Origin: Sphingomonadales bacterium
Lineage (GTDB): Bacteria; Pseudomonadota; Alphaproteobacteria; Sphingomonadales; Sphingomonadaceae
Assembly: GCA_012032285.1 (NCBI GenBank)
Contig: JAAURJ010000017.1
Span: 1-52,442, forward strand
DNA length: 52,442 nt
Direction of reading: 5' to 3'
Shown here piece by piece: positions 21,353 through 41,548 of this stretch (positions are counted from its first letter, which is position 1; each line of letters starts with the position of its first letter). A program made the position numbers and the translations under genes. The notes beneath the pieces are model-generated. The model saw nothing but the letters and a program-made list of their open reading frames with translations. It was not told where the DNA came from and did no database searches.

Positions 21353-21685
21353 TCATTTTGCTTCTAGAGATAGTAAATGCTCCACTGCAAAGCGGGCTGC
21401 AGATGTTAGTGCTATTTTGCGCACACGTCTGTCTTTTTTGTCAATTCTTGATTGGATAAATTGTTCTTTTTCAAGTTTTTCCAAATAACGAAGCAATGTT
21501 GTTTCGCCATAATTTAGGCCACCAATAATCCGTTGAACACCTGTTTGCCCTGAGTTTTCATCTACATAAATTCTGAGTAGCAAAATCCAACAAGGTTCAG
21601 CCAAGCGTCCAAACCGCGCAAATAGTCTCTGCCTGTGTGAGTAGTTATTCAACTGCATTCTAGCAATCTGATTTTTGGTATGCAC
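21353..21685 (-). CDS. Winged-helix transcriptional regulator, MarR-like
   Basis: 110 residues. The centre reads as a winged helix: EPCWILLLRIYVDEN (helix 1), TGVQRIIGGLNYGETTLLRYLEKLEKEQFIQ (recognition helix region, residues about 47-80), then a basic wing SRIDKKDRRVRKIALTSAARFAVE. The wing motif DKKDRRVRKIALT is the MarR-type DxRxxR-[KV]xLT pattern. A single domain with no obvious ligand-binding extension. GTG 21685 is the apparent start. Base composition here is more AT-rich than the neighbours by eye. Target genes are unknown; the 170-base space to the M48 gene and the 128-base space on the other side hold no other gene. Confidence 0.78.
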   Translation of the reverse strand: MHTKNQIARMQLNNYSHRQRLFARFGRLAEPCWILLLRIYVDENSGQTGVQRIIGGLNYGETTLLRYLEKLEKEQFIQSRIDKKDRRVRKIALTSAARFAVEHLLSLEAK

Positions 21686-21813: not shown

Positions 21814-22539
21814 TTACTCCATTATGGAGGAAATGGCTATGTCTACCCTGTTACCATCTTGAGATAACCGGAAGTGCAGCTTTTCATTGGGTTCCAAACC
21901 GGCAATTTCCATTTCCTCTGTTATAGGGCCATTGACGGCAATATCATGGACGATCCGCACCGCCCTTCTGACCAATTGCTTTTGCTCCAGTGTCGCCGAT
22001 GAAACTGTAATTTCCTGATTAGAAAACCAGGATAAACCCGCGCTGGAGATTTCACCATCACCGTCTGATTTGAAATCAACGAGCGGGAGCACCGGAAATG
22101 CACCGCCGGATAGATATTGCCCCACCACATCACGGAAATAATCATATCCGGACGCAATTTTCGCAGGCGTCCATAGGACCGCCGTTAATGACAATTCATC
22201 GCCAAAGGAAACTGCAAATTCCAATAATTGCCGAATGATCGTCGGGGCTGTCCGGCCGGAACCGATATGGTCCCCCAATTCCAAAGCAATGCACATCCCA
22301 ATGCTATCATTATCAATAGTGCAGAACACCGGTTTATACTCGCTCACCAGCCCTGCACCGCGCGACAAAGAGCAACGAAATCCAGCGCCTTTTATCATTA
22401 TATCAATATGATCATGATGTTCGCTAACAATGGTATAGCCCTGTTTCGCGGCAAGGCGGCGAGTGGATTGCAACAACAGACCCGGCTGCCGAGCGCTATT
22501 CCCATCAAGCAACAATAATAATGACGGCAAATCAGACAA
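21814..22539 (-). CDS. Uncharacterised protein, possibly DUF4261-like
   Basis: 241 residues, soluble, no signal peptide or membrane segment. I do not recognise it with certainty. The segment AVLWTPAKIASGYDYFRDVVGQYLSGGAFPVLPLVDF (residues about 120-156) followed by ISSAGLSWFSNQEI (about 164-177) resembles the core of DUF4261 proteins (WxPS, YL-GAFPVLxLV, GLxxFGxxE). The TTG at 22539 is the apparent start but has no good Shine-Dalgarno, so the true start is uncertain. It stands alone between the MarR-like gene and the ccm cluster. Function unknown. Confidence 0.6.
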   Translation of the reverse strand: MSDLPSLLLLLDGNSARQPGLLLQSTRRLAAKQGYTIVSEHHDHIDIMIKGAGFRCSLSRGAGLVSEYKPVFCTIDNDSIGMCIALELGDHIGSGRTAPTIIRQLLEFAVSFGDELSLTAVLWTPAKIASGYDYFRDVVGQYLSGGAFPVLPLVDFKSDGDGEISSAGLSWFSNQEITVSSATLEQKQLVRRAVRIVHDIAVNGPITEEMEIAGLEPNEKLHFRLSQDGNRVDIAISSIME

Positions 22540-22662
22540 ACAAAATTGCTTTCTATATTTTACAAAAGTTCGCCATTTGTTCTAAATGATAGAATCCGAT
22601 TCTGCAAGTATGCTATTGCAGCATCAACATATGAATTCCCATTTTGGACCAGATACATATCA

Positions 22663-39549: not shown

Positions 39550-40332
39550 TTAAGCCGCTTCGCCTGCGCCAGCCGCCGCTTCGGTGAGCACCGCTTCGGC
39601 TTCGGGTTCAACTTCCGCGCCCAGATCAACGCCTGCGTCAATCTTTGCCTTTACATTGCCCTTTGATGCCGCTTCGGCAATCGCCTCGCAATAAAGGCGA
39701 ATGGCACGCGCCGCATCGTCATTGGCGGGAACGGGGAAAGCAATGCCGCTGGGATCCACGTTCGAATCAAGAATTGCAATAACCGGAATACCCAAAACAT
39801 TGGCTTCCTTGATCGCCAGCTCTTCTTTATTGGCATCAATGACGAACATCACGTCGGGAATACCCCCCATATCGCGGATACCACCCAGCGACAATTCCAG
39901 CTTGTCGCGCTCACGGGTCATCTGCAAAAGCTCTTTCTTGGTAAAGCCGGTGGCATCTCCCGCCAATTGCTCTTCCAGTGTTTTCAGCTTTTTGATTGAA
40001 TTGGAAATGGTTTGCCAGTTGGTCAGCATTCCGCCGAGCCAGCGATGGTTCACAAAATGCTGCCGCGATGCACGGGCAGCATCGGCAATCGGACCTTGCG
40101 CCTGACGCTTTGTGCCGACGAACAGGACTTTTCCGCCCGATGCCGCAATTTGCGATACAAAATCGAGTGCGCGGGCAAACAGGGGAACGGTTTGTGACAG
40201 ATCAAGAATGTGGATACCGTTACGCGAACCGAATATATACGGCTTCATACGCGGGTTCCAACGATGGGTTTGGTGGCCGAAATGCGATCCGGCTTCAAGC
40301 AGTTGCTGCATGGTAACGACAGGTGCCGCCAT
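39550..40332 (-). CDS. rpsB: 30S ribosomal protein S2
   Basis: 260 residues. Starts [53 protein letters not shown] near residues 90-107; [33 protein letters not shown] near 153-185. The acidic, Ala/Glu-rich tail ([21 protein letters not shown]) is longer than in E. coli and usual for sphingomonads. First gene of the rpsB-tsf-pyrH-frr block; a promoter and structured leader lie upstream. Confidence 0.97.
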
Positions 40333-40524: not shown

Positions 40525-40553
40525 TTGACACATTAGAACAAATAGTGAACATA
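40525..40553 (+). promoter_or_regulatory. Promoter with LexA (SOS) box
   Basis: TTGACA at 40525-40530 is a perfect -35; a -10-like AACATA lies 17 bases on at 40548-40553. Between and overlapping them, GAAC (40536-40539), seven bases, GAAC (40547-40550) is an exact match to the alphaproteobacterial LexA box GTTC-N7-GTTC read on the other strand. A repressor bound here would block RNA polymerase. The target is the plus-strand gene at 40634. Confidence 0.8.
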
Positions 40554-40633
40554 TCTCAAAGTTGTTCAGCGAATAGAAAGCAAATCCCTCTTAAAGGCTG
40601 ATTTTAAGGGGAGAAGTTCGAAAGGATTTTTCG

Positions 40634-40927
40634 ATGACCATAATTGCCTCCGCCCTGTTCCTTCTGGCACTGGCCGCTTCGATTTTTGTGATTGTCGGCA
40701 ATGTTGCTGATCATATGCCACGTATATTGGATGTAATTGAAAACAGGGACGGCGCCGCATTGCCATCACGCAAAATCACGGTCGGTCCGCTGCGTACTAC
40801 GTCCAAAAAGTCTCAGGCTGCACCTTTGCGCCTTCGGCTCGCCAATGCGCCTGTTCTGCGTAAACTTCCGCCAACCATTGCCCGTCCAGCCAGTTACGGC
40901 TGGCATCCATCCAAAATTGCTGCGTAA
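40634..40927 (+). CDS. Small single-pass membrane protein, likely SOS-induced
   Basis: 97 residues; I do not recognise the family. One N-terminal hydrophobic segment (IIASALFLLALAASIFVIVGNVA, residues about 3-25) without charged residues is followed by a proline- and arginine-rich, basic soluble region with SRKITVGPLR near residues 45-54 and RPASYGWHPSKIAA at the end. The likely topology is N-out with a cytoplasmic basic tail, or the reverse. AAGGA lies 7 bases before ATG 40634, so it is well translated. The LexA box at 40536-40550 puts it under SOS control. SOS-induced small inner-membrane proteins in Caulobacter (SidA) block cell division; a similar role is a hypothesis only. A hairpin (CTTAAA/TTTAAG with flanking CCC/GGG, 40586-40611) lies in its leader. 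Confidence 0.75.
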   Translation: MTIIASALFLLALAASIFVIVGNVADHMPRILDVIENRDGAALPSRKITVGPLRTTSKKSQAAPLRLRLANAPVLRKLPPTIARPASYGWHPSKIAA

Positions 40928-41275: not shown

Positions 41276-41548
41276 TTAGTTCACAGCATCTTTCAGCGCT
41301 TTACCCGCTTTAAATTTGGGCTGCTTCGAAGCTTTGATAGTCATTGGCTCGCCTGTGCGCGGGTTGCGGCCGGTCGACGCTTTGCGGTGGGCAACAGAAA
41401 AAGTGCCGAAACCAACAAGACGAACATCGCCACCTTTTTTCAACGCACCTGTTACAGCGTCAAAAGTCGCTTCAACCGCTTTGGCAGCGTCAGCTTTGGT
41501 CAGGCCGCTTGCGTCAGCGACAGCGTTTACGAGATCTTGCTTGTTCAT
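41276..41548 (-). CDS. hupB: HU-family DNA-binding protein
   Basis: 90 residues, the standard HU size: MNKQDLVNAVADASGLTKADAAKAVEATFDAV at the start, VRLVGFGTFSVAHRKASTGRNPRTGEPMTIKASKQPKFKAGKALKDAVN at the end, with the Pro-containing DNA-clasping arm GRNPRTGE near residues 60-67. It bends and compacts chromosomal DNA. It lies downstream of lon on the same strand, a conserved pairing, with its own promoter and terminator. Confidence 0.97.
   Translation of the reverse strand: MNKQDLVNAVADASGLTKADAAKAVEATFDAVTGALKKGGDVRLVGFGTFSVAHRKASTGRNPRTGEPMTIKASKQPKFKAGKALKDAVN

Follow-up and report, generated by a model that had tools for sequence, protein, structure and literature searches.

Does the LexA-type box in front of a small uncharacterised gene in a sphingomonad genome mark a true member of the SOS regulon, and what might the product of this gene do when DNA is damaged? 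The gene lies on contig JAAURJ010000017.1 of a Sphingomonadales bacterium (Sphingomonadaceae; assembly GCA_012032285.1), of which positions 1 to 52,442 were analysed and are referred to as the window. Its open reading frame (ORF) at 40634-40927 (+) codes for 97 amino acids (aa) that form, just as an initial annotation had described, a single N-terminal hydrophobic helix followed by a basic Pro/Arg-rich tail. The box, GAACAAATAGTGAAC (GAAC-N7-GAAC), occupies 40536-40550 (+) and begins 98 bp 5' of the 97-codon ORF. Comparison with related genomes showed that the gene is real and widespread in the Sphingomonadaceae and that a LexA-type operator is conserved in its promoter.

Both the exact box and the TTGACA 5' of it (40525-40530 (+)), which would serve as -35 element, were found where the initial annotation had placed them. 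The box lies in the promoter spacer and touches the likely -10 element. While the TTGACA is perfect, the claimed overlap of the box with the -10 is plausible rather than shown, the possible -10 (AACATA, 40548-40553 (+), 17-bp spacer) being a weak match. A likely ribosome-binding site, AAAGGA (40621-40626 (+)), stands 7 nucleotides (nt) 5' of the ATG.

The bare eight-base motif is not rare by chance. Three sites were found in the window against 0.88 expected, a number reached by 8 of 100 shuffles, and the whole genome contains 55 sites compared with 81 for a reversed control pattern. The significance of the box therefore comes from its conservation in relatives and not from the motif itself. 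The frequency of the bare motif also fits the view that the box is a chance match or serves the rpsB gene, whose start lies 204 bp away on the opposite strand, the small gene being incidental. We regard this as very improbable in the light of the comparisons described below. The longer signature TTGAC-N3-6-GAAC-N7-GAAC occurs a single time in the 2.78-Mb genome assembly, at this locus.

A search with the single protein sequence in 149 genomes of the family detected the gene only in the genome of the window and in a congener (G068). A three-row profile raised the number to 11 of 347 genomes, i.e. eight of genus g1, two of genus g87 and one false match (L014). With an 11-row profile 53 of 397 genomes were matched (E-value (E) up to 0.05), with a 40-row profile 160 of 397 Sphingomonadaceae genomes in 49 of 96 genera (E up to 0.01), and with a 100-row profile 97 of 199 genomes in 57 of 96 genera. 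These tallies are rough, because some of the weakest matches fall in long or interrupted frames and are probably false. Mean column identity over 100 members is only 17%, indicating fast drift. Differences between close relatives fell on third codon positions in 93 of 130, 37 of 57, 16 of 24, 41 of 83 and 1666 of 3379 cases in five groups; all five shares exceed the one third that would be seen if the sequence were under no coding constraint, and in three groups the excess is strong.

Since the profiles were built from protein sequence only, the DNA upstream of the matches provides an independent check. The first held-out set comprised the top 60 places of the 40-row profile by rank, one per genome and none dropped; genomes already matched by the 11-row profile and a second copy in one genome (G095) were skipped. 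It was extended by 20 places, made up of three passed over before (G114, G280 and the second G095 copy) and of the 17 places ranked next. A box was counted in coding orientation within 250 bp upstream of the gene, and a scrambled pattern, CAAG-N7-CAAG, on either strand served as control. The exact box was present in 53 of the 60 places (control: 1) and in 17 of the 20 (control: 1). The initial annotation, which had named a box missing from related genomes as the finding that would speak against LexA control, is thus upheld on this point by 70 exact boxes in 80 held-out places compared with 2 for the control, and by 65 of 66 members linked to rpsB in named records (one mismatch in L216). The remaining 7 of the first 60 places have a one-mismatch box in TTGAC context, the first half reading AAAC or the second GATC. 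In five of them an exact box additionally stands a short way upstream in the opposite orientation, where in L059 and L064 it seems to belong to a transfer RNA terminator. With one mismatch allowed the counts rise to 18 of 20 (L308 being the one-mismatch case) and 78 of 80, although only the exact count carries weight, because the scrambled control with one mismatch reaches 15 of 60. The held-out matches are related to one another, so that the 80 places do not represent 80 independent events. The rpsB-linked set overlaps the earlier ones: among the 65 proteins tabulated for it, 55 had not occurred before and 10 are identical to earlier sequences.

Pooling of the training, first held-out and named sets yielded 160 unique proteins. 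The exact box precedes 148 of them and lies 48-192 bp (median 98) 5' of the start codon; the 12 members without it are L004, L017, L035, L059, L064, L112, L115, L117, L127, L135, L155 and L165. In 147 of the 148 a TTGA is found at most 22 nt 5' of the box, ending 3-6 nt before it in 95 and 14 nt before it in 28, and running into the box as TTGAGAAC in 16. Immediately after the box, 99% of the aligned relatives have A, and 75% have T at the position that follows. Orientation and closeness to the small gene are kept also in genus g87, where the gene adjoins adk and not rpsB; this and the held-out counts argue against a box that serves rpsB, and a chance match is rejected by the held-out conservation, even though the bare motif would not reach significance by itself. 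LexA control of the small gene is thus strongly supported by conservation and is predicted with near certainty. In this way a regulatory site can vouch for a gene family whose protein sequence has diverged too far for standard libraries to recognise.

The same motif marks the genes expected of an SOS regulon in this genome. Upstream of its one lexA match (on contig C82) the motif is found on the opposite strand and begins 45 bp 5' of the lexA start. Thirty-eight retrieved regions cover 39 of the 55 genomic sites, and the three sites of the window were examined as well. Motif sites were found 5' of genes matching RecA, UvrA, UvrD/PcrA, a DinB-type (Y-family) polymerase, RuvA, RadA and RmuC, several of these genes being cut at the end of the fetched region and most scores lying below the full-length cut-off. 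Further sites precede an MmcB gene (PF06319) and a gene for an S24-type repressor, and others lie inside long frames, presumably by chance. Among 379 ORFs of at least 100 aa sampled from 400 kb of the same genome, none has the box in coding orientation and one has it in the other. Read on the opposite strand, the motif equals the Caulobacter consensus GTTCN7GTTC (PMC12700426). Because the motif precedes lexA, recA and repair genes, we take GAAC-N7-GAAC by context to be the LexA operator of this genome, in agreement with the initial annotation.

The family is frequently found at the same place. A member divergent from rpsB was detected at 66 of 80 rpsB loci retrieved from records named Sphingopyxis, Sphingobium, Novosphingobium, Sphingomonas, Sphingorhabdus, Parasphingorhabdus or by a higher rank; four of these members score weakly with the profile (L226, E 0.2; L237, 0.017; L219, 0.006; L231, 0.004). 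Five of the 14 loci without a profile match have less than 400 bp of flank, and L241 has a box at the fetched end. L224 and L232 were missed by the profile and have a box and a small one-helix ORF ending in AAA; in L184, L194, L199, L201, L215 and L225 no such ORF was found under the rule used. In a class-wide sample of 385 genomes, which contains few Sphingomonadaceae, seven genomes matched profile A3, of which only the genome of the window and G091 have clear members; three of the other five matches lie in frames of 122-401 aa and two contain stop codons. At least two Sphingomonadaceae genomes of this sample (G041, G014) have no A3 match. Six false profile matches (L014, L043, L049, L051, L054, L055), none with a box within 400 bp upstream, were kept out of A3 on inspection, and five near-duplicates (L018, L020, L038, L048, L052) were omitted from it. 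L060, which has a box and ends in VHA, stands outside A3 and A5 and inside the 160 unique proteins.

The architecture of the protein is steadier than its sequence: a helix without preceding Lys or Arg, a basic tail and an Ala-Ala end are kept despite the 17% identity. In the window protein the helix comprises about residues 2-22 (40637-40699 (+)), the tail about residues 27-94 (40712-40915 (+)), and the C-terminal Ile-Ala-Ala is encoded at 40916-40924 (+). The 160 members measure 69-107 aa (median 78), and their best hydrophobic window starts near residue 4. No Lys or Arg precedes the best 19-residue hydrophobic window in any of them, and in 153 the 15 residues after the helix contain more Lys and Arg than the stretch before it. 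By the positive-inside rule the N-terminus is predicted to lie outside and the C-terminus inside (N-out/C-in), with a cytoplasmic tail. This tail has a positive net charge in 157 of 160 members (mean +5.9), consists to 26% of Arg, Lys and Pro, and is probably disordered.

Ala-Ala forms the C-terminus of 146 of the 160 members (Ala-Ala-Ala in 77) and of 15 of the 20 extension places, compared with 9 of the 379 sampled ORFs. The transfer-messenger RNA (tmRNA) of the same genome encodes the tag ANDNEALALAA, which likewise ends in Ala-Ala. The terminal Ala-Ala is described as the part of the ssrA degron that matters most to ClpXP, and other proteins are targeted through related Ala-Ala ends (PMC7652416). 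The end of the window protein is therefore a candidate ssrA-like degron, and from its helix and terminus the product is predicted to reside in the inner membrane and to be degraded by ClpXP. Four features go beyond what the initial annotation had contained: the conserved Ala-Ala, the predicted topology, the wide occurrence in the family and the synteny with rpsB.

Its statement that the protein belongs to no recognised family held up in searches of 100 members against Pfam, NCBIfam and PHROGs, which gave no credible match. Isolated matches of single members were obtained with the Pfam families DUF3969, DUF5862, MgtE and DUF4179 (E 0.003-0.007), NCBIfam NF051484 (E 0.001) and phrog_9221 (E 0.0006), and none was retained. 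LysM was not matched in the 100 members at E up to 0.01. SulA (PF03846) was matched neither in the same genome at E up to 1 nor in the 100 members. Among the titles and abstract beginnings of the openly licensed literature searched, the matches listed included no SOS division inhibitor and no LexA regulon of sphingomonads. In a Sphingopyxis granuli transcriptome lexA, recA, radA, dinG and imuAB-dnaE2 were induced in anoxia with nitrate, and the parts of that text covered do not mention the small gene (PMC6472365). The increase of lexA and recA in anoxia is given there, for strain TFA, as 6-fold. The record of S. granuli NBRC 100800 contains a family member beside rpsB (L177). SOS-induced small membrane proteins are as such already known; no description of this family, of its predicted topology or of its ssrA-like end was found in the openly licensed literature searched.

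The known proteins of this kind suggest a function. SidA of Caulobacter crescentus, also an alphaproteobacterium, is a LexA-controlled small inner-membrane protein that inhibits division via FtsW (PMC4211646). Compared by description and length, SidA has 29 aa and the sphingomonad proteins 69-107 aa, so that SidA has no room for a long basic tail. Such a tail is found in the damage-induced division inhibitor ChiZ of Mycobacterium tuberculosis (PMC13396833), in which a disordered cytoplasmic segment with 12 Pro and 13 Arg (+10) adjoins one helix; this tail and the helix are reported to be enough to cause filamentation, and two-hybrid assays gave FtsQ and FtsI as partners (PMC7355643). ChiZ differs in that its tail is N-terminal, that it has an additional outside LysM domain, which is not matched in the sphingomonad members, and that it belongs to another phylum. 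YneA of Bacillus subtilis and SosA of Staphylococcus aureus are SOS-induced small membrane proteins that block late steps of division, YneA being quickly degraded (PMC13396833); the sphingomonad tail, in contrast, is predicted inside and has an ssrA-like end. SulA of Escherichia coli likewise imposes a short-lived, SOS-induced division block, but its target is FtsZ and Lon degrades it (PMC13396833). A publication of 2026 argues that small membrane inhibitors directed at FtsW are a common SOS solution (PMC13396833).

Taken as a whole, the explanation that we lean towards, at somewhat better than even confidence, is a short-lived SOS checkpoint protein that inhibits division in the manner of SidA or ChiZ and is timed by ClpXP. 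It fits the regulation, the size, the one helix and the likely destruction signal. The initial annotation had likewise considered an unreported SOS division inhibitor, a reading that the measured features make plausible. In the undamaged cell LexA would sit on the box inside the promoter and keep the gene off. RecA filaments would trigger LexA cleavage upon DNA damage, the TTGACA promoter would fire, and a small bitopic inner-membrane protein with a short periplasmic N-terminus, one helix and a basic Pro/Arg-rich cytoplasmic tail would accumulate. Contacts of helix and tail with the late divisome (FtsW/FtsI/FtsQ/FtsN) could then hold back septum formation during DNA repair, as SidA and ChiZ do. 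The C-terminal Ala-Ala, acting as an ssrA tag does, would deliver the protein to ClpXP and so allow division to resume soon after LexA again represses the gene. Repression by LexA and induction by DNA damage are what the conserved operator predicts; a delay of division by the product is suggested by analogy, and with less certainty than the regulation, the localisation and the removal by ClpXP. More tentatively, and at rather less than even confidence, the family may represent an independently evolved class of SOS checkpoint proteins, oriented N-out/C-in, whose Arg/Pro tail acts from inside and whose end, similar to the tmRNA tag, is a built-in ClpXP timer; its sequence would have drifted past the family libraries while operator, topology and C-terminus stayed nearly fixed across the Sphingomonadaceae. 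A true division inhibitor would be another unrelated solution, with its switch-on site (the LexA box) and likely switch-off signal (the Ala-Ala end) readable from the sequence. Sphingomonads are a large, well-studied family that includes pollutant degraders, and none of the papers listed by the searches gives an account of how they stop division after DNA damage. The question is testable, as a single gene, easy to delete, is involved and occurs in records of named culturable strains.

The regulation fits equally well a LexA-controlled membrane protein that acts in the damage response away from the divisome, its basic tail serving during SOS as a membrane tether for nucleoid DNA, for RNA, or for a factor of repair or proteolysis. 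The charge of the tail (mean +5.9) and its 26% of Arg, Lys and Pro would suit binding of nucleic acid or acidic lipid, and drift of the sequence at constant charge fits a contact of low specificity. No DNA-binding domain was matched by Pfam or NCBIfam among the members scanned, however, and four small one-helix proteins induced by SOS or damage (SidA, YneA, SosA, ChiZ) all act on division, in a sample drawn from the literature on division inhibitors. We consider such a tether unlikely, at about one chance in a few. LexA control and a single helix would also be expected of a membrane toxin like TisB or DinQ that lowers membrane potential during SOS and causes dormancy, and DinQ is a toxic one-helix inner-membrane peptide under SOS regulation (PMC3567139). 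Around the sphingomonad gene Rfam gave only matches below the gathering score, which speaks against a toxin of this kind, though an undescribed antitoxin RNA would be missed. Peptides of the TisB/DinQ type are not known to have a long basic tail or a C-terminal destruction signal. A toxin therefore appears improbable, clearly more so than a tether.

Several observations weigh against the division inhibitor with its conserved operator. In 102 of 199 family genomes not even the widest profile finds a match, partly through divergence and perhaps partly through absence. Two second copies in genus g2 (L304 = G095:C1, L319 = G207:C14), which are longer (113-114 aa) and lie elsewhere in the genome, have neither a box, one mismatch allowed, nor an Ala-Ala end, and look as if released from SOS control. 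In G068 two tandem copies lie beside rpsB (L002, 1501-1773 and 2105-2383), with an exact box 5' of the second only. Since L304, L319 and the first copy in G068 lack an exact box, the fold can also occur without the box. The searches described revealed no relation in sequence to any known inhibitor. YneA and ChiZ have an outside LysM domain, whereas the sphingomonad tail is predicted inside, where it could bind DNA, RNA or acidic lipid. DinQ further illustrates that not every SOS-regulated one-helix protein of the inner membrane acts on division (PMC3567139). Two further second copies in genus g2 were noted at G001:C1:24541 and G312:C32:1163035.

In the window the small gene is flanked on one side by the divergent rpsB (39550-40332 (-)), identified by TIGR01011, and on the other by an HU-type gene (41276-41548 (-)) with lon beyond. 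Standing alone between two minus-strand genes, it shares no operon with rpsB or the HU-type gene.

A search for the promoter signature in 111 genomes of the class gave 44 places among the matches listed, and the 30 places with loci were screened by a crude filter for size and hydropathy; the silence of this filter elsewhere means little, because the known member in G091 (L299) was not flagged. In another alphaproteobacterial family the signature stands 5' of a 34-codon one-helix ORF of SidA-like size (L292, G413:C18).

A second exact box of the window, GAACAAATGGCGAAC at 22568-22582 (-), lies about 30 bp 5' of a minus-strand ORF with TTG start (21814-22539), which has no NCBIfam or Pfam match and is possibly another uncharacterised SOS gene. 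It is followed by an ORF at 21353-21685 that appears MarR-like as read from its sequence. Elsewhere in the genome, exact boxes are found about 30 bp 5' of a three-Cys-motif partner gene (TIGR04474) and of a cytosine-5 DNA methyltransferase gene (PF00145) on contigs C34 and C38 (L078, L079). On contig C7 (L072) a gene for an S24-type repressor (LexA/CI-like; PF00717) has a box of its own, GAACAAATTATGAAC, which begins 71 bp upstream.
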